A stretch of 64,000 nt of DNA from Sphingomonas sp. 67-36. Its GTDB lineage: Bacteria; Pseudomonadota; Alphaproteobacteria; Sphingomonadales; Sphingomonadaceae. The stretch is taken from contig MKSU01000015.1 in assembly GCA_001897375.1 (NCBI GenBank), positions 84,680 to 148,679 on the forward strand, read 5' to 3'. The position numbers and the translations under genes are program-made. The notes beneath the pieces were generated by a model. It was not told the DNA's origin. It saw nothing but the letters and a program-made list of their open reading frames with translations, and did not search any database. Shown here one piece after another: positions 44,842 to 64,000 of this stretch (positions are counted from its first letter, which is position 1; every line of letters begins with the position of its first letter).

Positions 44842-46392
44842 TCAGCCTTGCCGTTCCGCCATTGCGCGTAGCTCGGGCTTCACCACCTTGCCGGAAGCGT
44901 TGAGCGGCAGCGCGTCGAGCAGGGTCACGCGGCGCGGGGCCTTGTAATTCGCCATATTCTCGCGCGACCAGCCGATCAGCGCCGCTTCGCCCACCCGTGG
45001 CGCGTCGGAGCGCAGCACGACGAAGGCGTGGCCGATCTCGCCCATCCGCTCGTCCGGCACGCCGATCACGGCGACGGCGGCGATGGCGGGATGGGCGGAG
45101 AGCAGCTTCTCGATCTCCGCCGGGTAGCAATTGAACCCGCCGGAGATGTACATGTCCTTCTTGCGATCGGTGATGCGCAGATAGCCCGCTGCGTCCATCA
45201 CCCCCACGTCGCCGGTATGGAGCCAGCCGTCGGCGTCGATCGCCTCGGCGGTGGCGGCGGGATCGTCGAGATAGCCGAGCATCACGCCATAGCCGCGCAC
45301 CAGCACCTCGCCCTCCTGCCCGCGCGGCACCTCATGGCCGGCGTCGTCGGCGCATTTCACCTCCAGCCCCGGCAGCGCCTTGCCGCAGCTTGACGCGACC
45401 AGCTCCACCGGATCGCCCTGGCGGCAGGAGGTGATCGCGCTGCACTCGGTCATGCCGTAAGCGGTGACGACGGCGCGGAAGCCGAGTTCGTCGCGCATCC
45501 GCTCGATCAGGATCGGCGGCACGGTCGCCGCGCCCGTCACCGCGCAGCGTAGCGCGGAGGAATCGAAACGCGGCTCCGCCAGCAGCGACTGGAAGATCGT
45601 CGGCGGGCCGGGGAGGAACGACACGCGGTCACGCTCGATATGCGTGATCGCCTTCGCCACGTCGAACGTCGCCATCGGCACGATCGTCGCGCCCTTGATG
45701 AGCGCCGCGACCCAGCCCGCCTTGAAGCCGAAGCTATGGAAGAAGGGATTGACGATCAGATACACGTCTCCCTCGCGCAGCCCCACCGCATCGCCCCACG
45801 CCTCGAACATCGGGATGATGCGGCCGTGCGTGGTCAGCACGCCCTTGGGCGCGCCGGTGGTGCCGGAGGTGAACATGATGTCGCTCAGCGCATCGGGGCC
45901 GAGCGCGGCGAGCGCATCGTCGACGCGGCGGTCGTCAGCGCCCGCGCCTTCGGCGAGGAAGGCATTCCAATCACTGTCGAACAGCAGCGTGCGTTCGAGT
46001 GTCGGGAGCGCCTCGTCCCTGAGCAGCGCGGGATAGTCCGTGCCGAGAAAATCGCCGACCGTGAACAGCATCCGCGCGTTCGTCCGCCGCAGGATATCGC
46101 CCGCCTCGCGCCCCTTCAGCCGGGTGTTGAGCGGCACGATCGCCGCGCCGGCCGCCTGCGCGCCAATGGTGGCGACGATCCACTCGGCGCGGTTGGGCGC
46201 CCAGATCGCGATGCGGTCGCCCGGTTCGATGCCATAAGCGAGGAAGGCGGAGGCCGCCTGACGCGCGCGCCGCCACAGTTCCGCGAAGCTCCACGTCTCG
46301 CCGTTCTCGATCAACGCGGGCCGCGCGCCGAAACGCGCGGCGGTCTCGGCGGCGAGGTGCGGGATCGTCGGGGGGAGCGCCACGGCCGTCAC
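44842..46392 (-). CDS. fadD3: HIP-CoA ligase (FadD3-type acyl-CoA synthetase)
   Basis: The 516-residue adenylating enzyme has the AMP-binding motif MFTSGTTGAPKG, the YGMTECSA motif and the hinge/C-terminal LRITDRKKDMYISGGFNCYP. FadD3 activates HIP, the C/D-ring remnant of steroids, to HIP-CoA. The GTG start overlaps the MaoC gene stop (GTGA). It is the last gene of the 17-gene leftward steroid operon and converges with the YegP-like gene. Assignment rests on length, motifs and its place beside ipdF and fadE30. Confidence 0.8.
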   Translation of the reverse strand: MTAVALPPTIPHLAAETAARFGARPALIENGETWSFAELWRRARQAASAFLAYGIEPGDRIAIWAPNRAEWIVATIGAQAAGAAIVPLNTRLKGREAGDILRRTNARMLFTVGDFLGTDYPALLRDEALPTLERTLLFDSDWNAFLAEGAGADDRRVDDALAALGPDALSDIMFTSGTTGAPKGVLTTHGRIIPMFEAWGDAVGLREGDVYLIVNPFFHSFGFKAGWVAALIKGATIVPMATFDVAKAITHIERDRVSFLPGPPTIFQSLLAEPRFDSSALRCAVTGAATVPPILIERMRDELGFRAVVTAYGMTECSAITSCRQGDPVELVASSCGKALPGLEVKCADDAGHEVPRGQEGEVLVRGYGVMLGYLDDPAATAEAIDADGWLHTGDVGVMDAAGYLRITDRKKDMYISGGFNCYPAEIEKLLSAHPAIAAVAVIGVPDERMGEIGHAFVVLRSDAPRVGEAALIGWSRENMANYKAPRRVTLLDALPLNASGKVVKPELRAMAERQG

Positions 46393-46850
46393 TCCGGGAA
46401 ATAGCGGCTGATCGTATCGACCACGCAGGCGGGTTTGTCGCCGCCCTCGATCTCGACGGTGACGCGCACGACGGACTGGATCGCGCCCTTCACCTCCTCG
46501 ACCGCGACGATCTCGCCGACGCCGCGGATGCGCGCGCCGACCTTCACCGGCGCGAGGAAGCGCAGCCGGTCCGCGCCGACGTTCACCGCATGGGTGAAGC
46601 CGCGCACCTCGATCAGGTCGGGGAGGAACAGGTTGACGAGGCTCATCGTCAGATAGCCGTGCGCGATCGTGCCGCCGAACGGCCCGGCCTTGGCACGCTC
46701 GACATCGACGTGGATCCACTGGTGGTCGCCCGTCACCCTGGCGAAGCCATCGACGCGATCCTGCTTGATCGCGAGCCAATCGGTCGGGCCGAGCGCGGTG
46801 CCTTCCTGCCCGATCAAGTCGCGCGGATGCCGGTAGACGCGCGCGCTCAC
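46389..46850 (-). CDS. MaoC-family dehydratase in the steroid operon
   Basis: The 153-residue single hot-dog-fold enzyme shows the (R)-hydratase motif FARVTGDHQWIHVD with the catalytic Asp/His and GPFGGTIAHGYLTMSL. It starts at a GTG that overlaps the ipdF stop (GTGA). It probably hydrates an enoyl-CoA intermediate during beta-oxidation of the HIP side chain or of the ring-opened products. Which of the steps it serves cannot be told from sequence. Confidence 0.82.
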   Translation of the reverse strand: MSARVYRHPRDLIGQEGTALGPTDWLAIKQDRVDGFARVTGDHQWIHVDVERAKAGPFGGTIAHGYLTMSLVNLFLPDLIEVRGFTHAVNVGADRLRFLAPVKVGARIRGVGEIVAVEEVKGAIQSVVRVTVEIEGGDKPACVVDTISRYFPE

Positions 46851-47626
46851 GCCCGCTGGCTCGATACCGAGACGATCTCGCCGGTCATGTACGACGACAG
46901 GTCGGAGGCGAGGAAGATCATCACGTTGGCGACTTCCCACACCTCGGCGGGGCGGCCGAACGCTTCCTGCGCGGAGAGCTTGGCGAGCAGGTCGTCGGTC
47001 GTCACCTTGGCGAGGAACGGGTGCATCGCGATCGACGGCGCGACGGCGTTGATCCGCACCCCATGCTCCGCCGCCTCCACCGCCGCGCAGCGGGTGAAGG
47101 CCATCACGCCCGCCTTGGCGGCGGCATAATGCGCCTGACCCTTCTGCGCCCGCCAGCCCAGCACGGAGGCGTTGTTGACGATCGCGCCGGCGGCGCGCGC
47201 GGTCATCGCGGGCAGGAAGGCGCGGGTCATGCGGAATACGCTGGTCAGCGTCACGTCGATCACGCGCGACCATTGCGCATCGGTCATCTCGACCACCGGC
47301 ACCTCGCCGCCCAGTCCGGCGTTGTTGATCAGCACATCGACATGGCCCAGCTTCGCCAGCGCCGTATCGCGCAGCGCCTGCACCTGCTCCTCGCTGGTCA
47401 CGTCGCACAGGCACGTCTCGGGGCGGGCGCCGACCGCCGCCGCGATGGCGTCCGCCGCTTCGCCCAGCCGGCGCTCGTGGAAGTCGCTGATGAGCACGCG
47501 CGCGCCTTCCTCGGCGGCGCGCTTGGCGACCGCGAAGCCGATGCCAGTGCCGGCGGCGGCGGTGACGACGACGGTGCGGTCCTTCAGCAGCCCGCGCGGG
47601 GCGGGATAGGCGGGGATGGCGGTCAT
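46847..47626 (-). CDS. ipdF: IpdF-like short-chain dehydrogenase
   Basis: The 259-residue SDR has the cofactor motif VVVTAAAGTGIGFAVA, the NNAGLGG motif and the catalytic YxxxK (HYAAAKAG). The TAAAGTGIG variant and adjacency to fadE30 and fadD3 match IpdF (Rv3559c), which oxidises the hydroxyl of a HIP-derived CoA ester. Starts and stops overlap both neighbours by 4 bases. Confidence 0.82.
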   Translation of the reverse strand: MTAIPAYPAPRGLLKDRTVVVTAAAGTGIGFAVAKRAAEEGARVLISDFHERRLGEAADAIAAAVGARPETCLCDVTSEEQVQALRDTALAKLGHVDVLINNAGLGGEVPVVEMTDAQWSRVIDVTLTSVFRMTRAFLPAMTARAAGAIVNNASVLGWRAQKGQAHYAAAKAGVMAFTRCAAVEAAEHGVRINAVAPSIAMHPFLAKVTTDDLLAKLSAQEAFGRPAEVWEVANVMIFLASDLSSYMTGEIVSVSSQRA

Positions 47627-48807
47627 GCGTTGCCTCGCGGTTCGCGCGGCAGGCCAAGCGCCCGCTCGGCGACTATGTTGCGCTGGATCTGGTTGGTGCC
47701 GCCGTAGATCGTGTCGGCGCGCGACGACAGGAACAGGCTCGGCAGCATCGGGAAGTCGTAGTCCGGCCCCGAAGTCACCTCGCCGGCCTGCCCGAGCACG
47801 TCCATCGCCAGCTCGCCGAGGTTGCGCCGCCATGTCGCCCATTGCAGCTTGTAGGTCAGCGCCGCGCCGTCCGGCCGCGCGTGATCGGTGTTGCTCAGCA
47901 CGCGCAGCGCGCCGTAGCGCATCAGCCTGAGGCCGATCTCGGCCTTCGCGATGCGCTGGCGGATCAGCGGGTTGCTCGCGGAACCGTTCGCCTTCGCCGC
48001 CGCGATGATCGCGTCCAGCTCGTGCCGGAAGCCCATCTGCTGCCCGAGCGTCGAGACGCCGCGCTCGAACGCGAGCAGCCCCATCGCCACCTGCCAGCCG
48101 TTGCCGGGCGTGGAGACGAGGTTCTCGGCGGCCGTGCGCGCGCCGTCGAAGAAGGTCTCGTTGAACTCGGCGTCGCCGTTGATCTGCCGGATCGGGCGGA
48201 TCGTGATTCCCGGCTGGTCGATCGGCATGAGGAGGAAGGTGAGGCCCTTCGGCCCCTTCGACCCTTCCTCGCTGCGCGTGACGACGAAGATCCAGTCGCA
48301 GATCTGCGCGAGGCTGGTCCAGATCTTCTGGCCGTCCACCACCCATTCGCCGGTCGCTTCATCGACCCGCGCGCGGGTGCGCACCGAGGCGAGGTCGGAC
48401 CCGGCGTTCGGCTCCGAATAGCCCTGGCACCAAAGGACTTCGCCGGATGCGATGCCGGGGAGGAAGCGCGCCTTCTGCTCCTCGGTGCCGAAGGCGAGGA
48501 TCGTCGGCCCGGCCAACTCGATCCCCATATGGCCGACGCGGCCGGGCGCGCCGGAGCGCGCATATTCCTCCGCGAAGATCACCTGTTGTTCGAGCGTCGC
48601 GTCGCGGCCGCCCCATTTGCTCGGCCAGCCGATGCAGCTCCAGCGATGGCGGCCGAGCTGCTGCTCCCATTCCTTGCGGCGTTCGGCCATCACCGTCAGG
48701 CCCAGCACGCCCCTGATGTCGCGGAACTCGCCGGACATCTGGTCGGCCAGCCAGTCCGCCGCCTCCGTGCGGAACGCCTCGTCCTCGGCCGAGAATCCGA
48801 GTCTCAT
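47623..48807 (-). CDS. fadE30: FadE30-like acyl-CoA dehydrogenase
   Basis: The 394-residue flavoenzyme has the ACAD signature GYSEPNAGSDLASVRT and the C-terminal IYGGTNQIQRNIVAERALG, in which the classical catalytic Glu of YEGT is replaced by Gly. Next to ipdF and fadD3 it matches FadE30, which desaturates a HIP-CoA derivative. Its 4-base overlap with the next, shorter ACAD suggests that the two form a heteromeric complex. Confidence 0.8.
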   Translation of the reverse strand: MRLGFSAEDEAFRTEAADWLADQMSGEFRDIRGVLGLTVMAERRKEWEQQLGRHRWSCIGWPSKWGGRDATLEQQVIFAEEYARSGAPGRVGHMGIELAGPTILAFGTEEQKARFLPGIASGEVLWCQGYSEPNAGSDLASVRTRARVDEATGEWVVDGQKIWTSLAQICDWIFVVTRSEEGSKGPKGLTFLLMPIDQPGITIRPIRQINGDAEFNETFFDGARTAAENLVSTPGNGWQVAMGLLAFERGVSTLGQQMGFRHELDAIIAAAKANGSASNPLIRQRIAKAEIGLRLMRYGALRVLSNTDHARPDGAALTYKLQWATWRRNLGELAMDVLGQAGEVTSGPDYDFPMLPSLFLSSRADTIYGGTNQIQRNIVAERALGLPREPRGNA

Positions 48808-49862
48808 GCCGCTTCTCCCAATCCGATGATTTGCGCGACCTGCTCGCGGTGCCAGTCGCTGTCGCCCAGCATCGCGCGGATCGCGCGGGCGCGCTTGAAG
48901 AACAGATGCGCGTCATGCTCCCAGGTGAAGCCGATCCCGCCGTGAAGCTGGATCATGTCCCCGGCGCAACGCATATAGGTGTCGCCCGCGAAACTCTTGG
49001 CGCTGTGCAGCGCGAGCGGGGCTTCGGGCGAACCCTCGTCCACCGCGCAGGCAGCCCAATAGACCGCCGAGCGCGCCTGCTCGATCTCCACCATCATGTC
49101 GGCGAGGCGATGCTTGTACGCCTGGAAGCTGCCGATCGGGCGGCCGAACTGCACGCGTTCCTGCGAATAGGAGACGGTGCGGTCGAGCGTCGCCTGCGCG
49201 CCGCCCAAGGCTTCCGCCGCGACGCAGATCCAGCCGCCGGCGCGCGCCGCCGCCAGCCCGGCCCGCCAGTCGGGCAGCGGATCGCCCGGCGTGTCGGCCA
49301 GCGTGAGGCGGGCGAGGGGGCGCGTCTGGTCCATCGTCACCGGGCGTTCGATCGAGAGGCCCGGCGCGTCGGCGCGGACGATCCATGCGCCGTCCGGGGA
49401 AGCGAGGACGAACATGTCCGCGACGCCGCCGTGCGGCACGAAATCGACCGTGCCGGTCAGCTTGCCATCCGTGACGCGCAGGTCATCGCTGCCGCCCGGC
49501 GCGGCGATCACCTCGCCCGAGGCGAGCTTGGGCAGCCATTCCCGCTTCTGCGCCTCGCTGCCCCCGGCGGCGATCGCGCGCGCGGGCATGGCGAGGCCGA
49601 GCAGGGGGAGGGCGGCGACCTGCGCGCCAGCCGCCTCGGCGATCGTCGCGAACTCGACCAGCCCAAGGCCGGAGCCGCCATGGGCCTCCGGCACCGCGAT
49701 CCCGGCGAGGCCAAGCTCGGTGCAGAAGCTCGTCCACAATGCGCGGTCGATCCCGTCGCCGTCCATTGCGCGGCGGGTGCGCTCGCTGGTGGCGTTCTCG
49801 GCGAAGAAGGCGCGGGCAGTGTCCGCGATCATCGCCTGTTCCTCGGTGAAGGCGAATTGCAT
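48804..49862 (-). CDS. Acyl-CoA dehydrogenase, short subunit
   Basis: The 352-residue ACAD-fold protein has the family start FAFTEEQAMIADTARAFF, a PEAHGGSGLGLVEFA loop and C-terminal HGGIGFTWEHDAHLFFKRA. The canonical substrate-side Glu motif is absent. It is translationally coupled to fadE30, which supports a two-subunit (alpha2beta2) dehydrogenase as described for steroid side-chain and ring ACADs. The specific substrate is not known. Confidence 0.75.
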   Translation of the reverse strand: MQFAFTEEQAMIADTARAFFAENATSERTRRAMDGDGIDRALWTSFCTELGLAGIAVPEAHGGSGLGLVEFATIAEAAGAQVAALPLLGLAMPARAIAAGGSEAQKREWLPKLASGEVIAAPGGSDDLRVTDGKLTGTVDFVPHGGVADMFVLASPDGAWIVRADAPGLSIERPVTMDQTRPLARLTLADTPGDPLPDWRAGLAAARAGGWICVAAEALGGAQATLDRTVSYSQERVQFGRPIGSFQAYKHRLADMMVEIEQARSAVYWAACAVDEGSPEAPLALHSAKSFAGDTYMRCAGDMIQLHGGIGFTWEHDAHLFFKRARAIRAMLGDSDWHREQVAQIIGLGEAA

Positions 49863-50767
49863 CAGGCGGTCCCCCACACCTTGCGCGGGGCGATCCGCTC
49901 GGCGAGCAGCCCGTCCACCGCCGCGCCGACATCCACCGGGTTCCAGCGCTTGCCGGCATCGACCATCGGGCCTTCGCGCCAGCCATCCTCCAGCATGATC
50001 TTGCCGCCTTCCAGCTCGAACACGCAGCCGGTGACATGCGCCGATTGCGCGCTGCCCAGCCACACCACCGTGGGGGCGATATTGGCCGGGTCCATCGTGT
50101 CGAACGCCTGTCCCCCGGTCGCCATTTTCTCCGCGAAGGCCTGCTCGGTCATGCGGGTGCGGGCCGAGGGGGCGAGCGCGTTGGCGGTGATGCCGTAGCG
50201 GCCAAGCTCCGCCGCCTGCACCAAGGTCAGCGCGGCGATCCCGCCCTTGGCGGTGGAATAGGCCGCCTGCGCGATCGAGCCTTGCAGGCCCGCACCGCTC
50301 GTCGTGTTGATGATCCGCGCGTCGACCGGCTCGCCCGCCTTCTGCCGCGCGCGCCAGTGATCGACCGCGTGGCGCGACAGGCAGAAATGGCCGCGCAGAT
50401 GGACGTGCATCGTCGCGTCCCATTCCTCCGGCGTCGCGGAGACGAACATGCGGTCGCGCACGATCCCGGCGTTGTTGACCACCACGTCCAGCCCGCCGAA
50501 CGCGGCGACGGCGGCGTCGACGATCCGCTTCGCCGCGTCCCAGTCCGTGATGTCCTCGTAATTGGCGATCGCGTTGCCGCCGGCCGCCTTGATCTCGGCC
50601 ACCACGTCGTCGGCCGCGCTGATGTCGCGTCCCTCGCCGCCGAGCGAGGCGCCGATATCGTTGACCACCACGTTCGCGCCCTCAATGGCGAAGGCGAGCG
50701 CATAGGCGCGCCCCAGCCCGCGCGCGGCGCCGGTGATGATGACGGTGCGTCCGTCGCAGATCCCCAT
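49862..50767 (-). CDS. Short-chain dehydrogenase (MFE-2-like 3-hydroxyacyl-CoA dehydrogenase)
   Basis: The 301-residue SDR shows VIITGAARGLGRAYALAFA, NNAGIVRDRMF and the catalytic YSTAK. The sequence looks like the dehydrogenase domain of peroxisomal multifunctional enzyme 2 and mycobacterial Rv3548c, which sits in the same kind of cluster. It could oxidise a 3-hydroxyacyl-CoA intermediate of ring degradation. It overlaps the downstream ACAD by one base. Confidence 0.78.
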   Translation of the reverse strand: MGICDGRTVIITGAARGLGRAYALAFAIEGANVVVNDIGASLGGEGRDISAADDVVAEIKAAGGNAIANYEDITDWDAAKRIVDAAVAAFGGLDVVVNNAGIVRDRMFVSATPEEWDATMHVHLRGHFCLSRHAVDHWRARQKAGEPVDARIINTTSGAGLQGSIAQAAYSTAKGGIAALTLVQAAELGRYGITANALAPSARTRMTEQAFAEKMATGGQAFDTMDPANIAPTVVWLGSAQSAHVTGCVFELEGGKIMLEDGWREGPMVDAGKRWNPVDVGAAVDGLLAERIAPRKVWGTA

Positions 50768-50769: not shown

Positions 50770-51222
50770 TCAGGCTTCCTTGCGTGCGATGGTGCGGAGG
50801 AGATGGGCGCTCATGTCGCCGACGAGTTCGGGGGCGAGATACTGGCGCTCGGTGTAGTGCCACTCGCCGTCGATGATCGCGAGCTTGTCGGCATAATGGC
50901 CGGCGGCGATCACCTGAAGCGGCAGGTCGTCGGTCGCCTGGAGGATGGTCCATTGCGAGCGGCAGGTCGCGCTCTGCCCATCCTCGGAAAGCTCGATCAC
51001 CGGATTGGTGATGATGTGGCGGGTGCGCGGCGTGCCGTCCGCATAGAGATGCACCCAGCTTTTCCACATCGCGACGATCGCATCCTCGCCGCGCAGTTCG
51101 CCCCCGCCGGTGACGAGGCAGCCGTGGCGGAACATCCGCGCCGCGCGGTGGAAATCGGCCGAATCGATCGCGTCGGCGTAGCGATAGAGGAGGTTGGGGA
51201 TATCGATGGCGGGGTTGGTCAT
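50770..51222 (-). CDS. NTF2-like (SnoaL/ketosteroid isomerase fold) protein
   Basis: The 150-residue protein has the cone-shaped NTF2-like fold signs: YADAIDSADFHRAARMF, TRHIITNPVIEL and YTERQYLAPELVG. Homologues with this fold include ketosteroid isomerases and SnoaL-type enzymes. The Asp/Tyr pair needed for ketosteroid isomerase activity cannot be confirmed here, so function is open. It sits inside the operon between fadA6 and an SDR. Confidence 0.72.
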   Translation of the reverse strand: MTNPAIDIPNLLYRYADAIDSADFHRAARMFRHGCLVTGGGELRGEDAIVAMWKSWVHLYADGTPRTRHIITNPVIELSEDGQSATCRSQWTILQATDDLPLQVIAAGHYADKLAIIDGEWHYTERQYLAPELVGDMSAHLLRTIARKEA

Positions 51223-51230: not shown

Positions 51231-52382
51231 TCACAGCCGCTCGATGATGGTGACGTTGGCCTGTCCGCCGCCCTCGCACATGGTCTGCAGGCCGTAGCGC
51301 CCGCCGGTGCGCTCCAGCGCGTTCAGCAGCGTGGTCATCAGCCGCGCGCCGGTCGCGCCGATCGGGTGGCCGAGCGCGATCGCGCCGCCAGCAACGTTGA
51401 CCTTCTCGTGCGGCACGCCGAGTTCCTTCATCCATGCCATCGGGACGGAGGCGAAGGCCTCGTTGCATTCGAACAGGTCGATATCGGCGATCGACATGCC
51501 CGCCTTGGCCAGCGCGTGCCGCGTCGCCGGGATCGGGCCGGTGAGCATCCACACCGGGTTGGCGGCGCGGACGGAGAGGTGATGGATGCGCGCGCGGGGC
51601 TTCAGGCCATGCGCCTTGACCGCCGCCTCGCTCGCGATCAGCAGCGCGGCAGCGCCGTCGCAATTCTGGCTGGCGACGCCGGCGGTGATGACGCCGCCCT
51701 CGCGCACCGGCTTCAGCGCGGCCAGGCCCGCCATATTGGTCGCGGGGCGGATCGTCTCGTCCGCCTCCAGCCCGGCGAGCGGGGCGATCTCGCCCCTGAA
51801 CCAGCCCTGTTCGGTGGCCCGTTGCGCGCGGGCGTGCGATTCGACCGCGAACGCCTCCATCGCCTCGCGGGTGATGCCCCATTTGTCGGCGATCATCTCG
51901 GCCGATTTGATCTGGTTGACTTCTTCGTCGCCGTAGCGCGCCTGCCACCCCACCGAACCGCGGAACGGATCGTCGAAGCCGTAAGGCTGGCCGGCGAACA
52001 TCGCGGCGGAAATGGGGATAGCGTTCATCGCCTGGCTGCCGCCCGCGACGACCAGATCCTGCGTGCCGCTCATCACGCCCTGCGCGGCGAAATGCACCGC
52101 CTGTTGCGAGGAGCCGCACTGGCGATCGATCGTCACCCCCGGCACTTCCTCCGGCAGCCCGGCGGCGAGCCACGCGGTGCGGCCGATGTCGCCCGCCTGC
52201 GGCCCGATCGTGTCGCAGCAGCCCCACACCACGTCATCGACCGCCTTGGGGTCGATGCCGGCGCGCGAGATCAGCGCCTTGATCGGATGCGCGCCAAGAT
52301 CGGCGGGGTGGACGCCCGCGAGCGTGCCCTTCTTGCGCCCGATCGGGGTGCGCACCGCATCGACGATATAGGCTTCAGCCAT
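51231..52382 (-). CDS. fadA6: FadA6-like thiolase
   Basis: The 383-residue thiolase has nucleophile Cys89 (DRQCGSSQQ), GGAIALGHPIGATGA and the second active Cys in TMCEGGGQANVTIIERL. It reads closely to the recalled sequence of actinobacterial FadA6 (MAEAYxxDAVRT start, same C-terminus), which cleaves the last ring-derived CoA ester in steroid catabolism. Start MAEAYIVDAV is preferred over an upstream ATG. It overlaps the ACAD gene by 8 bases. Confidence 0.8.
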   Translation of the reverse strand: MAEAYIVDAVRTPIGRKKGTLAGVHPADLGAHPIKALISRAGIDPKAVDDVVWGCCDTIGPQAGDIGRTAWLAAGLPEEVPGVTIDRQCGSSQQAVHFAAQGVMSGTQDLVVAGGSQAMNAIPISAAMFAGQPYGFDDPFRGSVGWQARYGDEEVNQIKSAEMIADKWGITREAMEAFAVESHARAQRATEQGWFRGEIAPLAGLEADETIRPATNMAGLAALKPVREGGVITAGVASQNCDGAAALLIASEAAVKAHGLKPRARIHHLSVRAANPVWMLTGPIPATRHALAKAGMSIADIDLFECNEAFASVPMAWMKELGVPHEKVNVAGGAIALGHPIGATGARLMTTLLNALERTGGRYGLQTMCEGGGQANVTIIERL

Positions 52383-54506: not shown

Positions 54507-55255
54507 CAGAACTTCGCCGCCCCCTTGGTCTCGACGAAGGCGTCGCGCGATTTCTGGCTGTCCTCGTGCATGTACATTTCGAGCGTGAAGCCCTGCTCGA
54601 AGCGATAGCCGTGATCGACGTCGCGCGGCTCCAGCCCGTTGAGCGCCTCCTTGGCGATCACCAGCGCCTTGCGGCTCTTGGAGGCGATCACGGCGGCGAA
54701 GGCGCGCGCCTCCTCGTAAAGCTTCCCGGCCGGGACCAGCTTCTCGATCGCGCCGATGCGATACGCTTCCTCCGCCGGGATGCGCCCGCCGGTGAAGAAG
54801 GCGGCGCGGACCTTCTGGATCGGGAACATGCGCTGGAGGTGGCTAGCACCGCCCATCGCGCCGCGATCGACCTCGGGCAGCGAGAAGAACGCGCCCTCCG
54901 CCGCGATCACCACGTCGGACGCGCCGCAGATGCCGATGCCGCCGCCGATCACGAAATTGTGGACGGCGGTGACGACCGGCACCTCGCAGCCGCGCACCGC
55001 GCGGAAGGTGCGGTAATTGCCACGGTTGAGATCGACGATCCGCTCCGGGTGCGCCTGCATCTCCTTGATGTCGACGCCGCCGCAAAAGCCCTTGCCCTCG
55101 GCGCGGATCAGCACGCAGCGCACCTCGGGATCGCGCCCGAGCGCCTCGATGATGCCGGGCAGTTCGTTCCAGCCCGCGCTGTCGAGTGCGTTGACTGGCG
55201 GGTGATCGAGGATGACCTCGCCGATATGGTCGGCGATTTGGGTGCGGATCGGCAT
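54506..55255 (-). CDS. echA20: EchA20-like ring-opening hydrolase (crotonase family)
   Basis: The 249-residue crotonase-fold enzyme shows GKGFCGGVDIKEM (oxyanion loop) and FVIGGGIGICGASDVVI. In Mycobacterium, EchA20 hydrolyses the D ring of a HIP-derived CoA ester to COCHEA-CoA, the step before IpdAB. Name is given because of the fixed order ipdA-ipdB-...-ipdC-echA20 and the sequence pattern. It overlaps ipdC by one base. Confidence 0.82.
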   Translation of the reverse strand: MPIRTQIADHIGEVILDHPPVNALDSAGWNELPGIIEALGRDPEVRCVLIRAEGKGFCGGVDIKEMQAHPERIVDLNRGNYRTFRAVRGCEVPVVTAVHNFVIGGGIGICGASDVVIAAEGAFFSLPEVDRGAMGGASHLQRMFPIQKVRAAFFTGGRIPAEEAYRIGAIEKLVPAGKLYEEARAFAAVIASKSRKALVIAKEALNGLEPRDVDHGYRFEQGFTLEMYMHEDSQKSRDAFVETKGAAKF

Positions 55256-57249: not shown

Positions 57250-58049
57250 GCTGTTTTCTCCTTCACCGCATCGGGATTGCCCGCGATGACGGTCGCGCGG
57301 ATGTTGTGCGGATCGAGCCGCGCGATGATCGCCAGTGCCTCCGCATCGGGGAGCGGCGTTTCGGTCAGCGCGCCTTTCTCCAGCGGGAAGCCGGTCGCCG
57401 CCTGCACCTCCTCGAAGGTCACGCCGGGATGCAGCGAGACGACACGGACCGCGTGATCCTTGCCGCCGAAGTCCATCACGCACAGGTTGGTGATGATGCG
57501 GCGCAGGTCGATGCCCGCATAGTTGCCGCCGGCCACGCGCTTCGCCGGATTATAGCCGGCGCTCGACACCATATCGACCTCGCCCGCCACGAACACGCGC
57601 GGCGAATGCGCGGGCACGAACATCGAATTGGGATGATAGACCGAATTGCCGGGGAAGCCGCGCACGCCCAGCATCTGCGTCTTCGGCTTGTGATAGGTGC
57701 CGCCGAGATAGGACAGGTTGGTCTGCCCGAAGCGGTCGATCTGCGTCGGCGTCACCATCGCGTGCCGCCGCCCGGTCCATACCGCCGCGTCGAAGAAGCG
57801 CGAGAAGGGCAGGTGGCCCGCCGATTTCGGCCGGTCGTCATAGCCGCGCGGGCCGATCGGCACCGGCTGCTCGACGAGGAACGCCTCGCCGTCGGTCATC
57901 ATCAGGCCGGGCGAATGGGTGAGCTTGGCGAGGCTCGCGCCGAGCCGGGGCACCGGGCCGACGCCGGTGGCGATGATCTCGCGCGTGTCGCGGAAAGCTT
58001 CCGACGCGGCGAAGATGCACAGTTCCGCAAGGGTGACGTTGCCGCTCAT
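57246..58049 (-). CDS. ipdB: IpdB, beta subunit of COCHEA-CoA hydrolase
   Basis: The 267-residue CoA-transferase-fold subunit pairs with IpdA. IpdAB, though built like a CoA transferase, is a hydrolase that opens the last steroid ring (ring C). Segments TGVGPVPRLGASLAKLTHSP and VTPTQIDRFGQTNLSYLGG are of the CoA_trans family. The overlap of one base with ipdA indicates stoichiometric synthesis. Confidence 0.88.
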   Translation of the reverse strand: MSGNVTLAELCIFAASEAFRDTREIIATGVGPVPRLGASLAKLTHSPGLMMTDGEAFLVEQPVPIGPRGYDDRPKSAGHLPFSRFFDAAVWTGRRHAMVTPTQIDRFGQTNLSYLGGTYHKPKTQMLGVRGFPGNSVYHPNSMFVPAHSPRVFVAGEVDMVSSAGYNPAKRVAGGNYAGIDLRRIITNLCVMDFGGKDHAVRVVSLHPGVTFEEVQAATGFPLEKGALTETPLPDAEALAIIARLDPHNIRATVIAGNPDAVKEKTA

Positions 58050-58927
58050 CAGAACACCGGCATCGGCAGCTTCGCCACCGACTCCATGCCGCCCACCGAG
58101 GCGATATAGCCCTGCTCGTCCGCGCCGACGAAGCGCTCCGCCACCTGCATCCAGTCGCCCGGGTCCTTCGCGGCGTCGGCATAGGCGCGGAACGCCTTCA
58201 TGTCCCAGCCATAGGCGGGGGGCATCGAGCTGGGATGCGCGCCGCCCTTCATCTCGACCACGCCGCTCACGAAGCAGCGCTCGAATTCGTTGAACCGCGC
58301 GTCATCGGGATAATGATCCTCCATCCGGTCGACCAGTTCCTCGCACGAGACGAAGCTGCGCGCCGCCGCGCGGGCGAACCATTGGTCGTAGTAGGTGTCC
58401 GGCCCGAAAAGCTGGACGTTGCCGCGCCAGTCCGCGCGGTTGACGTGGATCAGCGCCGCGTCGAGCTTCAGCGCGGGCATCGCGATCAGCGTCTCGCCGT
58501 CCTCATAGGGCGATCGCACCAGCTTCAGCCCGCCCAGCTCGGCGAGATCGGTGCCGAGGCCGACGCGGGTCGGCAGGAAGGGCAGGCCGAAGGCGGCGGT
58601 CTTCAGCCCCCATTGCAGCATCCCCTCGTCGAGCTCGAGCACCTCGATCGACCCGGATTCGCGCGCCTTGCGGAACCACGGCTCCAGCGGGATCGCATCG
58701 AGCGAGACGAAGGAGAAGACGAGCTTCCTCACCTTGCCCGCCGCGCACAGCATCCCGACGTCCGCGCCGCCATAGGCGACGATCGTCAGGTCCTTGAGCG
58801 GCGAGCGCAGGATCTCGCGCACCAGCGCCATCGGCTTGCGGCGCGGACCCCAGCCGCCGATGCCGAGCGTCATCCCGTCATGGAGGCTGGCGACGATCTG
58901 AGCCGCCGTCATGCGCTTGTCGAGCAT
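58049..58927 (-). CDS. ipdA: IpdA, alpha subunit of COCHEA-CoA hydrolase
   Basis: The 292-residue CoA-transferase-fold subunit has the glycine-rich loop LGIGGWGPRRKPMALVREI. Together with IpdB it hydrolyses the ring-C intermediate COCHEA-CoA in the HIP pathway. The upstream gene hsaC overlaps by one base and ipdB follows with one base overlap. Start MLDKRMTAAQIVASLHDG is chosen over an earlier ATG inside hsaC. Confidence 0.88.
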   Translation of the reverse strand: MLDKRMTAAQIVASLHDGMTLGIGGWGPRRKPMALVREILRSPLKDLTIVAYGGADVGMLCAAGKVRKLVFSFVSLDAIPLEPWFRKARESGSIEVLELDEGMLQWGLKTAAFGLPFLPTRVGLGTDLAELGGLKLVRSPYEDGETLIAMPALKLDAALIHVNRADWRGNVQLFGPDTYYDQWFARAAARSFVSCEELVDRMEDHYPDDARFNEFERCFVSGVVEMKGGAHPSSMPPAYGWDMKAFRAYADAAKDPGDWMQVAERFVGADEQGYIASVGGMESVAKLPMPVF

Positions 58928-59844
58928 CAGGCGGCTCCCTGCGCGGCTTCGGTCTGCCACGCCCAGACGTGGCCCCATTTGCTCACCTTGTCGTGCGCGG
59001 TGACTTCCCAGGTGGCGGGATCGATCACCAGGCCGTTGCACCCGATCTCCAGATCGAAGCCGCCCGGCGTCTGGACGTAGAAGCTGGTCATCTCGTCATT
59101 GACATGCTCGCCCAGCGTCGCGGATTCCTTGTAGCCGCCCGCGACCATCCGCGCGTGCGCCTTCTCCACTTCCTCCAGCGTCGGCAGTTCGAGCATCAGG
59201 TGGATGCTCTGCGACGGCGGCACCGGCATTTCCGCCAGCGCGACGCTGTGGTGGCGGCCGTTGTCCGCGTGCATGAAGGCGAAGCGCATCCCCGGATCGT
59301 GGTCGCCGCCCATCAGGAAGAATTGCGGCAGATCGGTATCGTGGAAGCCGATCACGTCGCGATAGAAGGCATGGCTCGCCGCGAAATCGGGCGCGGCAAG
59401 CACCGAATGGCCCATGCCGTAGATGCCGGTGACGAAATGCGGCACGCCGACCGGCGAGACGAACGGCGTCTCCGCGCGCTGGTCGCCATGGTAGAACTCA
59501 AGGCCGTTGCCCGCCGGATCGGTGGTGCGGAACAGTCCCGCGACGCAGCGCGACGCGGCCAGTTCCGGCGTGCCCATCTCGACCGGGCGGCCCGAGGCGC
59601 GGACCTTCTCCGCCAGCGCGAGGAGCGCGGCTTCGTCCTCCACCTCATAGCCCGACGCCGCGAGTCGATCGGCCGCGCCGTTCTCGATGCGGAAGCGGAA
59701 CGGGCGTTCGTCGACGCGATAGAGCGCCGCGCCGTCGCTCGCCGGCGCGCCGCGCATCGCGCCCGCCACCTGCGTCAGGAAATGGTCCCAGCGGTCCGGC
59801 TGCGTGGTCTCCACCACCGCATAGCCAAGCGATTTCACGCCCAT
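58927..59844 (-). CDS. hsaC: HsaC, extradiol dioxygenase for 3,4-DHSA
   Basis: The 305-residue two-domain type I extradiol dioxygenase cleaves the catechol 3,4-DHSA (A ring) to 4,9-DSHA. Iron ligands are His146 (GMGHSVLAAPD), His215 (SQSIHLMLE) and Glu266 (GGFDLEIGC); an acid/base His lies in NGRHHSVAL (199/200). Numbering matches the recalled HsaC/BphC family within one residue. It is oddly placed on the minus strand, apart from hsaA-hsaD on the plus strand. Confidence 0.9.
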   Translation of the reverse strand: MGVKSLGYAVVETTQPDRWDHFLTQVAGAMRGAPASDGAALYRVDERPFRFRIENGAADRLAASGYEVEDEAALLALAEKVRASGRPVEMGTPELAASRCVAGLFRTTDPAGNGLEFYHGDQRAETPFVSPVGVPHFVTGIYGMGHSVLAAPDFAASHAFYRDVIGFHDTDLPQFFLMGGDHDPGMRFAFMHADNGRHHSVALAEMPVPPSQSIHLMLELPTLEEVEKAHARMVAGGYKESATLGEHVNDEMTSFYVQTPGGFDLEIGCNGLVIDPATWEVTAHDKVSKWGHVWAWQTEAAQGAA

Positions 59845-59848
59845 GACA

Positions 59849-60616
59849 TCAGGCTCCCTTCACCAGATCGAGAAAATACGGGCGCTCGCCGCCGCCATCG
59901 ACTTCCAGCCGCGCGCCGCTCACCCAGCTCGCCAGCGGCGAGCAGAGGTAGAGCACCGCGCCCGCGATATCGTCGCCATTGCCCATCCGGCCGAGCGGCA
60001 TCGAGCGGCCGACCGCCGCCTGCGCCGCGGCGTCGCCATAGGTCGCCTCTGCGTTCTCGGTGTGCATCAGCCCGGCGATGATCGCGTTGACGCGGATGTT
60101 CGCCGCGCCCCATTCCTGCGCGAGGCTCTGCGTCAGGTTGAGCAGCCCCGCCTTGGCCGCGCCATAGATAGCGGTGCCAGGGGAGGGGCGGACGCCCGAG
60201 ACGCTGGCGATATTGACGATGCTGCCGCCGCCGGCCGCCGCCATGTGCGGATGCGCCGCCTGCGCCATGTAGAGCGGGGCGACGAGGTTGAGCTTCAGGA
60301 TCGCATCGACGAATCGCGGGGAGGCGGTCGCGGCGTCGGCCTGCGGCGATCCGCCGGCGTTGTTCACCAATATGTCGAGCCGTCCGTGCGCCGCCACCGC
60401 CGCCTCGACCAGCGCGCGCGCCTGATCGGGATCGCGCACGTCCGCCTGATGGAAAGAGATGCCGTCGGGAAGATCGTCCGGCGCGGCGCGGCCGCAGACG
60501 GTGACCGCGCAGCCGGCCTCCGCCAGCCGGGCGGCGATCGTCCGGCCCAGTCCGCGCGTGCCCCCGGTCACGATCGCGGCCTTGCCGGTCAGATCGAGAT
60601 GCGCGCCGCTCTCCAA
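59849..60616 (-). CDS. Short-chain dehydrogenase heading the steroid operon (TTG start)
   Basis: The roughly 255-residue SDR has the motif AIVTGGTRGLGRTIAARLA, NNAGGSPQ and the catalytic YGAAK. It resembles SDRs next to ipdAB clusters (Rv3549c type). No ATG is available near the fold start; a TTG at 60616 is preceded by GGGAGAGAAGG and gives MESGAHLDLTGKAAIVTGG. It is the first gene of the leftward operon and is separated from hsaC by 4 bases. The substrate is unproven. Confidence 0.72.
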   Translation of the reverse strand: MESGAHLDLTGKAAIVTGGTRGLGRTIAARLAEAGCAVTVCGRAAPDDLPDGISFHQADVRDPDQARALVEAAVAAHGRLDILVNNAGGSPQADAATASPRFVDAILKLNLVAPLYMAQAAHPHMAAAGGGSIVNIASVSGVRPSPGTAIYGAAKAGLLNLTQSLAQEWGAANIRVNAIIAGLMHTENAEATYGDAAAQAAVGRSMPLGRMGNGDDIAGAVLYLCSPLASWVSGARLEVDGGGERPYFLDLVKGA

Positions 60617-60704
60617 GCCTTCTCTCCCGTCTTCCCCGATAAAGGGCGTGAAATCGTTCTTGAACCATCGCCAAATCGCGTGGTCTCGCTTTTCTATTGA
60701 CGAT

Positions 60705-60722
60705 TTGCGTATCGTAGCGCAA
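60705..60722. promoter_or_regulatory. Inverted repeat in the divergent hsaA/operon control region
   Basis: TTGCGTATCGTAGCGCAA has 5-bp arms TTGCG/CGCAA around a CG centre and sits in the 171-base gap between the divergent hsaA gene and the leftward operon. A TTGACG hexamer (60697-60702) lies just upstream. It is a candidate operator for a TetR-type repressor; the regulator gene is not in the window. It does not match the known KstR2 motif as I recall it. Confidence 0.45.
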
Positions 60723-60787
60723 GAGAAATTACGAAGATTGTGATTTTGAGCCGGCGATGATCGCCGGCCGCATAAGGAGGGGCTGCA

Positions 60788-61996
60788 ATGGCTGCCACAG
60801 TTCCGCTCACGACTCAGGTCGAGCCGCCGGCCGCGGCCGAGCTGATCGAGCGCGCGCGTGCGATGATCCCGACGCTCAAGGAGCGCGCGAAGCGATGCGT
60901 CGCGGAGGGCAAGGTGCCCGACGAGACGATCGCGGAGATGCAGGCCGCCGGCTTCTTTCGTATCCTTCAGCCGGCGCGCTGGGGTGGCTATGAGATGCAT
61001 CCCAACACGTTCTTCGACGTGCAGAAGCTGCTGGCGGAAGGCTGCATGTCGACCGGCTGGGTCTTCGGCGTGGTCGGCTGCCATCCCTATGAGCTGGCGC
61101 TGTTCGACGATCGCGCGCAACAGGAGGTGTGGGGCGAGGATGACAGTGCGCTCGCCTCCTCTTCCTATCAGCCGGTCGGCAAGGTGGAGCATGCCGACGG
61201 CGGCTTTTACCTGACCGGGCGCTGGGGCTTCTCCAGCGGGTCGGAGCATTGCCAGTGGGTGCTGCTCGGTGCGCTGGTGCCGTCGAAGGAGCCGGGCGGG
61301 CCGCCGGACATGCGGACTTTCCTGCTGCCGCGCAGCGACTATCGCGTCGAGCGCAACTGGGACGTGTTCGGGCTTCAGGGCACGGGCAGCCAGGATATCG
61401 TGGTGGAGCGCGCCTTCGTCCCCGAATATCGCACGCACCGCGCGGTCGACGGCTTCAACTGCCGCAATCCGGGGCAGAAGGAGAATGACGGCATTCTCTA
61501 TACCCTGCCGTGGGCGCAGATCTTCGTCCGCTCGGTGTCGTCGGCGGCGCTGGGCGGCGCGCGGGCGGGGATCGAGGCGGCGCTGGCGATCGCCGCCGAT
61601 CGCGTCTCCACCAACACCGGCAAGGCATCCAGGACCGATCCGATCCTCCACGCCGCGATCGCGCGCGCCAGCGCGCAGGTCGGCGAGATGGAACTGACGC
61701 TGCGGGCGACCTTCGACGACCTGATGGGCTATGCCGGGCGGGGCGCGGCGATCCCGCTGGAGAAGAGGGCGGCCTATCGCTACCAGTCGTCCACCGTGGT
61801 GCGGCGCTGCGCGGAGCTGATCGGGGATATCCTGCCGCTGCTCGGCGGACGGGCGATCTACATGTCCAGCCCGATCGTCCAGCCGTGGCTAGACCTCAAC
61901 GCCGCGCGTGCCCATGTCGCCAACGATCCGAACAACTGGACGGCGGACATGATCGGCGGCCTGATGGGCCAGCCGCCCGCGATGATGTTCCTGTGA
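60788..61996 (+). CDS. hsaA: HsaA, flavin-dependent 3-HSA monooxygenase
   Basis: The 402-residue ACAD-fold oxygenase (group D) hydroxylates 3-HSA to the catechol 3,4-DHSA using reduced FMN from HsaB. Markers: FRILQPARWGGYEMHPNTFF and HAAIARASAQVGEMELTLRA. HsaB (flavin reductase) is not in the window. The start ATG has a GGAGG site 6 bases upstream (AAGGAGGGGCTGCA). It ends 1 base inside hsaD. Confidence 0.85.
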   Translation: MAATVPLTTQVEPPAAAELIERARAMIPTLKERAKRCVAEGKVPDETIAEMQAAGFFRILQPARWGGYEMHPNTFFDVQKLLAEGCMSTGWVFGVVGCHPYELALFDDRAQQEVWGEDDSALASSSYQPVGKVEHADGGFYLTGRWGFSSGSEHCQWVLLGALVPSKEPGGPPDMRTFLLPRSDYRVERNWDVFGLQGTGSQDIVVERAFVPEYRTHRAVDGFNCRNPGQKENDGILYTLPWAQIFVRSVSSAALGGARAGIEAALAIAADRVSTNTGKASRTDPILHAAIARASAQVGEMELTLRATFDDLMGYAGRGAAIPLEKRAAYRYQSSTVVRRCAELIGDILPLLGGRAIYMSSPIVQPWLDLNAARAHVANDPNNWTADMIGGLMGQPPAMMFL

Positions 61997-62814
61997 TGGA
62001 GGCGCTCGTGAGCAAGCGGCATGTCGTCGGCGACGGGCACGAGATCCATATCGCCGAGATGGGCAGCGGCCCGGCGGTGGTGTTCATCCACGGCAGCGGA
62101 CCGGGCGCGTCGGGCGCGTCGAACTTCCGGCAGAATGCGGAAGCGTTCGTCGCGGCGGGGTATCGCGTGATCCTGCCGGACATGATCGGCTATGGCGCGT
62201 CCTCCAAGCCGGAGGGGCTGGATTATACGCTCCAGCTCTTCACCGACACGCTCTACGATGCGCTGATCGCGCATGGCGTCACCCGCGCGGCGCTGGTCGG
62301 CAATTCGCTGGGCGGCGGCGTCGCCTTGCAGATGACGCTGGACCACCCGGAATTCGTCTCCAGCCTCGTGCTGATGGCGCCCGGCTGCATCGAGGAGCGC
62401 GAGACCTATTTCGCTATGCCGGGCATCGCGAAGATGGTGTCGAACTTCGGCGGCCCGGATTTCACGATCGAGGAGCAAAGGCGGCTGATCTGCAACCTCG
62501 TCTATGACGCCTCGGCCGTCACCGACGAACTGGTCGCGGAACGCTACGCCGTCGCGCGTACCCAGCCGAAGGACGTGCTGGTGCGAATGCGCACGCCGAA
62601 CCTCGCGCCGCGCCTGGGCGAGGTGAAGCAGCCGATCCTCGGCTTCTGGGGGTTGGAGGACGATTTCTGTCCCGCCAGCGGCGCGCGCTATTTCCTCGAA
62701 TCCTGCGACGACGTTCGGTTCATGAGCTTCACCCGCGTCGGCCATTGGGTGCAGGTGGAGCGCGCGGGAGAGTTCAACCGGTATTCGATCGGTTTCCTTG
62801 ATGAGCATCGCTGA
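61996..62814 (+). CDS. hsaD: HsaD, 4,9-DSHA carbon-carbon hydrolase
   Basis: The 272-residue alpha/beta hydrolase cleaves the meta-cleavage product 4,9-DSHA to HIP and 2-hydroxyhexa-2,4-dienoate. Visible triad: Ser104 in GNSLGGG, Asp222 or 223 in GLEDDFCP and His250 in VGHWVQVE; the oxyanion HGSGPGASG is typical of meta-cleavage hydrolases. It overlaps hsaA by one base and hsaE by 14. Confidence 0.88.
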   Translation: MEALVSKRHVVGDGHEIHIAEMGSGPAVVFIHGSGPGASGASNFRQNAEAFVAAGYRVILPDMIGYGASSKPEGLDYTLQLFTDTLYDALIAHGVTRAALVGNSLGGGVALQMTLDHPEFVSSLVLMAPGCIEERETYFAMPGIAKMVSNFGGPDFTIEEQRRLICNLVYDASAVTDELVAERYAVARTQPKDVLVRMRTPNLAPRLGEVKQPILGFWGLEDDFCPASGARYFLESCDDVRFMSFTRVGHWVQVERAGEFNRYSIGFLDEHR

Positions 62815-63577
62815 GCGTTACGGCGCCGAGCTGTTCGGCGCCCTGCGCGGTTGCCGCACCGTGCCGCCGTTGATCGCGCGCGATCCGGCGCTGACGGTGG
62901 ACGACGCCTACGCCATCTCGCTCGATTTCCTCGCACGCCGCACGCGGGACGGGGAACGGGTGATCGGCAAGAAGATCGGCGTCACGAGCAAGGCGGTGCA
63001 GGACATGCTGGGCGTCCACCAGCCCGACTTCGGTTTCCTCACCGACCGGATGTGGATCGAAGGCGATATCGACATTGCCGCCACCGGGCTGATCCAGCCG
63101 CGCGCGGAGGCGGAGATCGCCTTCATCCTGCGCGATGCGCTCAAAGGCCCCGGCGTGACGGCGGCCGACGTGATGGCCGCGACCGAGAGCATCGCGCCGT
63201 GCTTCGAGATCGTCGACAGCCGGATCGACGACTGGAAGATCGGCATCGTCGATACCGTGGCGGACAATGCCTCGTGCGGGGTGTTCGTGCTCGGCGAGGC
63301 GCGCGCCGATCCGCGCGCGCATGACCTCCCCGGCCTGCGCGTGACGGTGACGAAGAACGGCGCGCCGCTGTCCGAAGGCTATGGCCATGCGGTGCAGGGC
63401 GATCCGGCGGCGGCGGTGGCGTGGCTTGCCAACACACTGGGGCGTTACGGCGTGACGCTGGAGGCGGGCGACGTGATCCTCTCCGGCTCGCTGGTTCCGC
63501 TTGCTCCTGCTGCGGTGGGCGATCGGTTCGAGATGATGCTGGAGGGCGTGGGCGGTTGCGCCGCGCGTTTCGTATAG
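62801..63577 (+). CDS. hsaE: HsaE, 2-hydroxypenta/hexa-2,4-dienoate hydratase
   Basis: The 258-residue FAH-superfamily hydratase shows [30 protein letters not shown] and [14 protein letters not shown]. It hydrates the dienoate from HsaD to 4-hydroxy-2-oxohexanoate. The ATG at 62801 is used; a TTG just before it is possible. Then comes hsaG. Confidence 0.88.
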
Positions 63578-63588
63578 GAGTATCGACG

Positions 63589-64000
63589 TTGAGCAGAGTG
63601 AAGGCGGCGATCATCGGATCCGGGAACATTGGCACGGATCTGATGGTGAAGATGCTTCGGGGATCGGAGCATATGGAGCTTGCGGCGGTGGTTGGGATCG
63701 ACGCGGCGTCGGAGGGCCTGGCGATGGCGCGGGCGTGCGGGGTGGCGACCACGCACGAGGGGATCGAGGGGTTGCGGAAGCTCGCCTGCTATGGCGAGAT
63801 CGGCATCGCGTTCGACGCGACGTCTGCCTACGCGCACAAGGTGCACGACGCGGCATTGCGCGCGGACGGCATCCAGGTGGTGGACCTGACCCCGGCGGCG
63901 ATCGGTCCGTTCACGGTGCCGCCGGTCAACATGGAGGCGCATCTCGACCAGCCCAACGTCAACATGGTGACGTGCGGCGGGCAGGCGACGATCCCGATGG
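63589..64000 (+). CDS. hsaG: HsaG, acylating aldehyde dehydrogenase (partial, window end)
   Basis: The first 137 codons are visible. The N-terminal Rossmann motif [13 protein letters not shown] and the active-site Cys129 in [13 protein letters not shown] identify an acylating (propanal/acetaldehyde) dehydrogenase, which makes acyl-CoA from the aldehyde released by the aldolase HsaF. TTG at 63589 with GGAG 8 bases upstream is the likely start. HsaF is expected next, beyond the window. Confidence 0.85.

Follow-up and report, generated by a model that had tools for sequence, protein, structure and literature searches.

The sphingomonad steroid cluster and its described counterparts

A steroid degradation (SD) cluster has been described in Caenibius (Novosphingobium) tardaugens NBRC 16725 and, in the portions of the publication available to us, consists of two divergent gene runs with fadD3 at one end, tesD on the opposite side and an NTF2-family gene, while kstD and kshA lie at a distance (PMC6895838). 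The same portions report no regulator nearby, leaving the control of the cluster open, and give the NTF2 gene no known role (PMC6895838). In Comamonas testosteroni TA441, the available part of another report describes SteC as an NTF2-family dehydratase that acts on derivatives of hexahydroindanedione propionate (HIP) (PMC13101464). Here we analyze a cluster of this kind in the last 19 kb of a 64,000-nucleotide stretch of Sphingomonas sp. 67-36 (assembly GCA_001897375.1, contig MKSU01000015.1, here C15, positions 84,680 to 148,679; hereafter the window). With a probability of roughly 0.85, we read it as an SD cluster at the end of a steroid island that would form one regulon through an inverted repeat, ATTTGCGTA-N18-TACG, with paired Lrp/AsnC proteins as candidate regulators.

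The cluster is almost certainly the SD cluster already in print. A new gene order was considered and rejected, the arrangement being of the published SD type, with 17/17 genes of its long run in the order of plasmid pNL2 of Novosphingobium aromaticivorans DSM 12444. Ring-A genes and HIP genes form two divergent runs, and candidates for kshA and kstD lie outside the cluster, on contig C26 of the same genome. Genes for a lipid-transfer protein and a benzoylsuccinyl-CoA thiolase, as found in C. tardaugens, are absent among the 17 genes; because the pNL2 run also lacks them, they were not treated as defining. An IpdA scan of a genome collection returned 558 relatives, the best 80 being 67-89% identical. 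Those of the 80 with informative names are all Sphingomonadales, and the same gene order recurs in most relatives whose stretch covers the cluster. Within the window's own genus, 11 of 151 genomes hold an IpdA ortholog (E < 1e-90). The enzymes and the cluster have thus been described already; the predicted operator and regulon, the putative block swap and the apparently relocated genes go beyond the print we found.

The long run occupies 44842-60616 on the minus strand and comprises 17 genes, called by codon preference; hsaA, hsaD, hsaE and hsaG diverge from it on the plus strand from 60788. By ascending coordinate, the run's junctions measure 5, -4, -4, -4, -1, 2, 8, -8, -1, -1, -1, 3, -4, -1, -1 and 4 bp. 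A first-pass annotation made from the sequence alone had described nearly all minus-strand genes as overlapping or lying at most 8 bp apart, and this is borne out at 16/16 junctions of the run, compared to 8/32 other same-strand junctions of the window (Fisher p 6.5e-7). The 17 coupled genes probably form one transcript from the 171-bp divergent promoter at 60617-60787. The hsaG frame stays open up to the last base of the window and is incomplete, since this is also the last base of C15.

An inverted repeat as predicted operator

Two elements are distinguished in the divergent promoter:

60703..60733, plus strand: inverted repeat ATTTGCGTA-N18-TACG, 31 bp, predicted operator
60697..60702, plus strand: TTGACG, a -35-like hexamer with a putative promoter role, abutting the repeat and kept in 43/44 promoters

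Of 44 promoters that share the divergent arrangement, those of the window and of the relatives G048 and G049 among them, 43 carry ATTGACGATTTGCGTA without a mismatch and the 44th is one base off. On C26, sites of the form ATTTGCGTA-N18/19-WACG occur at 4406 (a pair of short-chain dehydrogenase/reductase (SDR) and NTF2 genes), 13433 (a CoA-ligase run), 20282 (a TonB receptor), 26196 (kshA) and 42159 (a ketosteroid isomerase (KSI)-thiolase pair). ATTTGCGTA has 11 copies genome-wide, six of them on C15 or C26 (binomial p 9e-7 with base composition ignored), and its reversed control has none. All six copies of TTTGCGTA on C26, one of them without the second arm, are intergenic, although intergenic DNA makes up 5.8% of that sequence; none of 600 letter permutations reaches this. 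In 75 kb of pNL2, 9/10 copies are intergenic, with 6.3% of the sequence being so. TTTGCGTA is also found within genes, namely 1/2 copies in the window, 2/9 in the G048 stretch, 2/10 in the G049 stretch and 1/10 on pNL2.

The full site is widespread among relatives of the cluster. It occurs in 55 of the 80 (51 with one copy, four with two), and 59/59 sites are intergenic, also in relatives where another gene replaces hsaA. A wider count gives 76/76 intergenic sites, a figure that includes near-identical loci and does not represent 76 independent events. Across the 151 genomes of the genus, only the four with this cluster type have the repeat in more than one copy (six copies in G000, six in G048, seven in G049 and six in G116); six others have one copy and 141 have none. 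These single copies resemble the single reversed-control matches found in ten genomes, and the seven other genus genomes bearing IpdA hold no copy.

On these sequence patterns, we consider it quite probable that the repeat is an operator of the steroid genes. It might instead act as an extended promoter element, or be a remnant of common descent kept by chance and without operator function, as TTGACG abuts the repeat in the SD promoter and descent links the SD sites of related loci. We find this unlikely, as the repeat recurs before unrelated genes, its orientation toward the next gene differs between sites (C26 sites 13433, 20282 and 26196 one way, 4406 and 42159 the other), and an inverted second arm follows at a constant spacing of 18-19 bp with varying bases in between. 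The EdcR palindrome, as given in the available part of PMC8700777, was tried as the repeat and rejected for lack of resemblance. Titles and abstract openings, in a search that left subscription papers mostly outside, contained no report of an operator for this cluster, and among the matches listed for literature with the letters of TTTGCGTA no title named steroid genes.

A candidate regulator

C26 encodes two Lrp/AsnC gene pairs, at 25202/25678 and 44740/45171, with mutual identities of 25-36%. In G049 and G116 the first pair has full sites on either side, and an AsnC pair of the second type on pNL2 has three half-sites no more than 120 bp away. Orthologs of C26_25202 (at least 60% identity) occur in 15/15 motif-bearing versus 6/15 motif-free genomes (Fisher p 0.0007, from 30 hand-picked loci out of 80, with the 60% line set after the values had been seen). 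Among 72,556 plasmids, 18 carry such an ortholog, and at least 17 of these also carry IpdA. Half-sites related to the repeat were also seen beside second-pair Lrp/AsnC orthologs (83-88%) in L178 (3597) and L179 (3568), where the IpdA locus is without the repeat. An Lrp/AsnC pair has been reported in a catabolic cluster of Sphingobium sp. Chol11, where the palindromes given in the available part of the report are those of a TetR and not the repeat (PMC12882949).

We name the paired Lrp/AsnC proteins encoded in the island as candidate regulators, a proposal to which we give about even odds. The repeat could also be a real operator read by another regulator, such as a TesR-like protein of the LuxR type, a TetR, or a factor encoded at an unlinked locus, and we rate this possibility at somewhat under an even chance. 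A LuxR-type gene stands just past the pNL2 cluster, with several TetR genes in the region, and the AsnC ortholog is still present in the 6/15 motif-free genomes. According to the available part of PMC12239570, TetR and LuxR genes lie in the pdc cluster of C. tardaugens, 12.8 kb from SD, and Comamonas TesR is of LuxR type. Conversely, the AsnC pair is flanked by full sites in G049 and G116, and scanning a part of the C26 genes turned up, as regulators, the two AsnC pairs, an AraC and a LysR.

Several observations weigh against one regulon under Lrp/AsnC control. No full site was found in 25 of the 80 relatives (some of them short contigs), both arms are present on pNL2 only at the SD promoter, and two plasmid regions beyond pNL2 hold at most two sites each (one full site in PP1Y, two full sites in KACC 22771). 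The looser form TTGCGTA-N18/19-WACG gives ten matches, seven of them on C15/C26 and covering six sites, versus six in the reversed control. The co-occurrence statistic for AsnC and the motif is uncorrected for kinship, a full site is present in only 7 of 28 AsnC-pair neighborhoods, and other regulators stand near the cluster in other sphingomonads (pNL2, C. tardaugens). Tight control is not favored either, because the available portions of PMC6895838 report high basal expression of C. tardaugens SD with only slight induction, and fadD3 and tesD knock-outs that still grow on testosterone.

The SD cluster within a larger steroid island

Contigs C26 and C4 each start inside a copy of hsaG, and the copies are near-identical by eye over 300 bases, so the assembly breaks at these repeated copies. 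Further acetaldehyde-dehydrogenase (hsaG-type) copies were noticed, including one at G000:C3:100271. In the close relative G048, whose proteins are 87-100% identical here, a single contig carries counterparts of C4, hsaG, C26, hsaG and the SD cluster in this order. This synteny shows the SD cluster to be one end of a larger predicted steroid island that includes C26.

C26 is 80,174 bases long, of which 80,000 were read, and the scan covered about 54 proteins or regions of C26 or C15, a part of the C26 genes. C26 encodes two KshA_C Rieske proteins and, with a score of 534.5 bits against a cut-off of 789, a KstD-like enzyme. A further FAD-binding enzyme, CoA ligases, a TonB receptor, a major facilitator carrier and a sulfotransferase-family protein are also encoded there, and adh_short has 14 matches. 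Gene content and these upper-pathway candidates together support the set for A-ring cleavage and HIP degradation proposed in the first-pass annotation. Relatives of the KSI-like gene (68%) and the thiolase (73%) that belong to the pNL2 run are located at C26:42270-43842, about 60 kb from the window's run, behind their own full repeat site at C26:42159. The genome has 14 SnoaL_4 (NTF2-like) matches; six lie on C26, which together with the cluster gene g48 makes seven in the steroid island. The pNL2 region is likewise rich in NTF2-family genes.

At 60-80 kb of C26, beside the second hsaG copy, kynureninase-type, amidohydrolase, fumarylacetoacetate (FAA)-hydrolase and aldehyde-dehydrogenase genes were observed. 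The last 20 kb of this contig probably serve kynurenine/tryptophan breakdown.

A probable mosaic operon

One block of the run differs from its surroundings in identities and trees:

51231..56346, minus strand: ipdC-echA20-fadE31-fadE32-fadA6 block, proposed homologous replacement

Compared with G049, the proteins are 87-95% identical, but those of ipdC, echA20, fadE31, fadE32 and fadA6 only 66-85%. Compared with L101 (S. lycopersici), the same five are 89-95% identical and the other L101 genes found 43-84%. DNA identity changes in steps at ~56350 and ~51230, both of them gene boundaries. Trees were built on 34 of 76 candidate loci, with groups picked after the identities had been seen. In the upstream block (ipdA, ipdB, g54), the group of window, G048 and G049 has support of 100/100, and window, G048 and L101 as a group is rejected by the approximately unbiased (AU) test (p 2.6e-8). 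Within the ipdC-fadA6 block, support of 100/100 goes to window, G048 and L101, and the group with G049 is rejected only at AU p 0.029. Downstream (g47, g46), window, G048 and G049 group together again.

The ipdC-fadA6 block seems to have been acquired by homologous replacement, with a Sphingomonas lycopersici-like lineage as the source. We read the window lineage as the recipient because L101 stays in its own Sphingomonas group upstream, and an older import may be present in G049. The step in identity could also stem from uneven rates, or from a replacement that took place in G049 and not in the window lineage. The modest AU result within the block, the position of G049 beside the Sphingomonas group in that tree, where it may hold an older import, and the choice of tree groups with identities already known all leave room for this. 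We nevertheless regard it as improbable in view of the high identity of the block, set against other L101 genes, the reversal of the supported group between the two blocks and the stepwise changes at gene boundaries. Judging from the apparent block swap, an operon can be remodeled piecewise even when its genes are tightly coupled.

Gene content and assignments

The genes of the two runs were assigned as follows, with scores in bits:

44842..46383, minus strand: g42, FadD3 (HIP-CoA ligase); NF005801 701.9, above cut-off 657
46389..46850, minus strand: g43, MaoC-type hydratase, putative ScdD counterpart; PF01575, best structure Rv0130
46847..47626, minus strand: g44, SDR, IpdF candidate; NF005880 above cut-off
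47623..48807, minus strand: g45, acyl-CoA dehydrogenase, FadE30/IpdE1 candidate by position; acyl-CoA dehydrogenase models below cut-off
48804..49862, minus strand: g46, IpdE2-like acyl-CoA dehydrogenase; NF050027 206, below cut-off 450
49862..50767, minus strand: g47, SDR; NF005861 above cut-off
50770..51222, minus strand: g48, accessory NTF2/SnoaL_4 protein, possible hydroxysteroid dehydratase; PF13577
51231..52382, minus strand: g49, FadA6-type thiolase; NF005865 651.4, above cut-off 591
52375..53346, minus strand: g50, acyl-CoA dehydrogenase (FadE32 position); NF050027 146.6, below cut-off 450
53346..54506, minus strand: g51, acyl-CoA dehydrogenase (FadE31 position); models below cut-off, order matching Table 1 of PMC8399759
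54506..55255, minus strand: g52, EchA20-type crotonase; NF005925 332.8, above cut-off 260
55255..56346, minus strand: g53, IpdC candidate; PF03060 and gene order
56350..57249, minus strand: g54, crotonase, ScdN counterpart by order (Table 1 of PMC8399759); NF006140 419.3, above cut-off 280
57246..58049, minus strand: g55, IpdB; best structures 6con_B, 6co6_B
58049..58927, minus strand: g56, IpdA; best structures 6co6_A, 6coj_A, 6con_A
58927..59844, minus strand: g57, extradiol dioxygenase, HsaC/TesB candidate; BphC 249.5 (cut-off 366.45) and HsaC 232.7 (cut-off 450), both below
59849..60616, minus strand: g58, SDR, first gene of the run, TTG start uncertain; NF005893 above cut-off
60788..61996, plus strand: g59, HsaA/TesA2 candidate; NF045629 359.3, below cut-off 450, best structure 3-HSA hydroxylase
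62008..62814, plus strand: g60, HsaD/TesD candidate; HsaD 170 (cut-off 400) and BphD 159.7, both below cut-off, best structures BphD
62801..63577, plus strand: g61, HsaE candidate; TIGR03220 354.4, below cut-off 408.8
63589..64000, plus strand: hsaG, N-terminal part only, start uncertain; open frame, relatives 79-88%, continuing into C26 by synteny

We take the models NF005865 and NF005925 and the SDR models to stand for FadA6, EchA20, IpdF and other Rv35xx proteins, and the structures 6co6, 6coj and 6con to be IpdAB, which the structure listing names as CoA-transferase subunits. The first-pass annotation had allowed that the best hits might be generic enzymes without IpdAB orthology. IpdA and IpdB are clearly closest to the solved actinobacterial chains: for IpdA the 6co6/6coj/6con chains lead glutaconate CoA-transferase by 153-165 bits, and for IpdB the IpdAB-type chains lead by 110-122 bits. 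Because this orthology is strong, the objection falls away. No NCBIfam equivalog lies above cut-off for IpdA or IpdB (IpdB has no equivalog match whatever), g52 matches no solved structure at 1e-30, and IpdC matches only the general nitronate monooxygenase (NMO) family.

The steroid genes named in the first-pass annotation largely hold, HsaA, HsaC, HsaD and HsaE doing so only below curated cut-offs. Its list had passed over g43 (MaoC), g46 and g50 (IpdE2-like), g48 (NTF2-like), g51 (FadE31-like by order), g54 (ScdN-like by order) and the SDRs g47 and g58. A profile check placed the FadD3, thiolase, crotonase and SDR models above cut-off; the models for HsaA, HsaC, HsaD, HsaE and IpdE2 all score below theirs, a result that tells against the steroid assignment. 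HsaA, HsaC and HsaD are thus named only as counterparts by position, as they fail to reach the NCBIfam cut-offs. For HsaC and HsaD, the scores against BphC and BphD match or exceed those against the actinobacterial steroid enzymes, and their steroid role therefore rests on context. In the alignment of g57 with BphC, two His and one Glu coincide, at positions that we presume to be the iron ligands of BphC. A biphenyl or polycyclic aromatic hydrocarbon cluster, which the HsaC and HsaD scores alone would permit, is ruled out by IpdAB, FadD3 and the HIP genes. The MaoC assignment of g43 corresponds to ScdD, which belongs to the MaoC family according to the part of PMC13101464 available.

The NTF2-like gene g48 adjoins the edge of the ipdC-fadA6 block. 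In 63 relatives having both neighbors, its site holds the gene in 24, at most 114 bp in 35 and other sequence of 586-671 bp in four. The AlphaFold model of g48 (confidence score pLDDT 92) matches NTF2-fold proteins in Foldseek, among them Rv3472, a putative scytalone dehydratase and LinA. In 24 sequences (the window and 23 relatives; two of 25 were dropped, L060 for a wrong start and L065 for reading through a stop), Tyr15 and His69 do not vary and Asp20 is at least 90% conserved. The NTF2/SnoaL fold and the conserved Tyr, Asp and His expected of SteC/BaiE/Hsh2-type dehydratases are thus present in g48, and BaiE presumably uses such residues. BaiE is absent from the best 60 of 74 profile matches and from the best 50 of 1289 Foldseek matches of g48. 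We infer that g48 is a putative dehydratase that would remove a ring hydroxyl from HIP derivatives.

Elsewhere in the window, a serine-palmitoyltransferase-like gene stands beside an acyl-carrier-like gene (33345-34848; translation judged by eye).

Proposed pathway, regulon and substrate

Homology, gene order and literature suggest the following route. HsaA, with a flavin reductase from elsewhere, would hydroxylate the aromatized A ring, which the extradiol enzyme g57 would cleave. HsaD would then yield HIP and a hexadienoate, the latter finished by HsaE, HsaF and HsaG. FadD3 would convert HIP to HIP-CoA, with its side chain shortened by SDRs, dehydrogenase pairs and the MaoC hydratase; IpdC, IpdF, EchA20 and IpdAB would open rings C and D, and the ScdN-like enzyme, the FadE31/32-like enzymes and FadA6 would carry out the final steps. 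The island would act as a single regulon controlled through ATTTGCGTA-N18-TACG, for which its own Lrp/AsnC pair is the leading candidate regulator. A broader proposal, which we hold in the balance, is that the repeat is the operator of an undescribed, order-wide sphingomonad regulon (uptake, CoA-ligase, 9-alpha-hydroxylation, ring A/B and HIP genes) under an Lrp/AsnC pair, with departed genes keeping a copy of the operator and operon blocks being exchanged as cassettes.

The cluster could mainly serve another ring compound (estrogens, bile acids or plant steroids) or general ring cleavage, with the androgen-type names borrowed. HsaC and HsaD score like BphC and BphD, and two relatives (L029, L085) belong to species named estronivorans and estronivorus. 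On C26, a CasG-related CoA ligase (366.5 bits against a cut-off of 750), an amidohydrolase and a flavoenzyme related to BaiCD at a score below cut-off would fit steroids that bear a side chain, bile salts for example. Against this stand the KshA- and KstD-like genes and the HIP genes, which are common to steroid routes. We consider such a use rather unlikely, and because the HIP genes are shared, it would alter the growth substrate and not the pathway.

A shared operator would make the control of SD, left open for C. tardaugens in the available portions of PMC6895838, directly testable. The repeat may also serve as a genome marker, with 6-7 copies in 4/151 genus genomes and more than one in none other. 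Used in this way, it could assist in locating steroid-degrading sphingomonads together with their complete gene sets, a matter of relevance to hormone pollution and bile-salt turnover.

Comparison with known systems

The actinobacterial KstR/KstR2 clusters encode the same ring C/D chemistry in a different gene order and with a different palindrome, and IpdAB orthologs are common to both. The tes/scd system of C. testosteroni TA441 shares pathway steps with the window but differs in having its genes spread over several clusters, ScdH/ScdB beside side-chain genes and control by the LuxR-type TesR, according to the available part of PMC13101464. Sphingobium sp. Chol11 (Nov2c344-Nov2c367) has the same enzyme set in Table 1 of PMC8399759, the part of that paper at hand. 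There hsaA, hsaC, ipdA, ipdB, ScdN, ipdC, echA20, fadE31 and fadE32 are numbered consecutively; by locus number, a comparison of order and not of sequence, it differs in that FadE32 is followed by a HIP thiolase and FadD3, with FadA6 further on. The long run of C. tardaugens spans 21 locus tags by number, compared to 17 genes here, on the description in the available portions of PMC6895838. On pNL2 (SARO_RS19620-RS19710), all 17 genes are colinear with the window at 42-87% identity. The plasmid also shares the divergent hsaA-like gene (67% identity to that of the window), the repeat in the divergent promoter, the NTF2 gene after fadA6 and, in the region, two Lrp/AsnC pairs, SARO_RS19395/19400 and RS19545/19550. 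It differs in that hsaD and hsaE do not stand behind hsaA there, and in the KSI-like gene and thiolase between maoC and fadD3, which are missing from the window's run.

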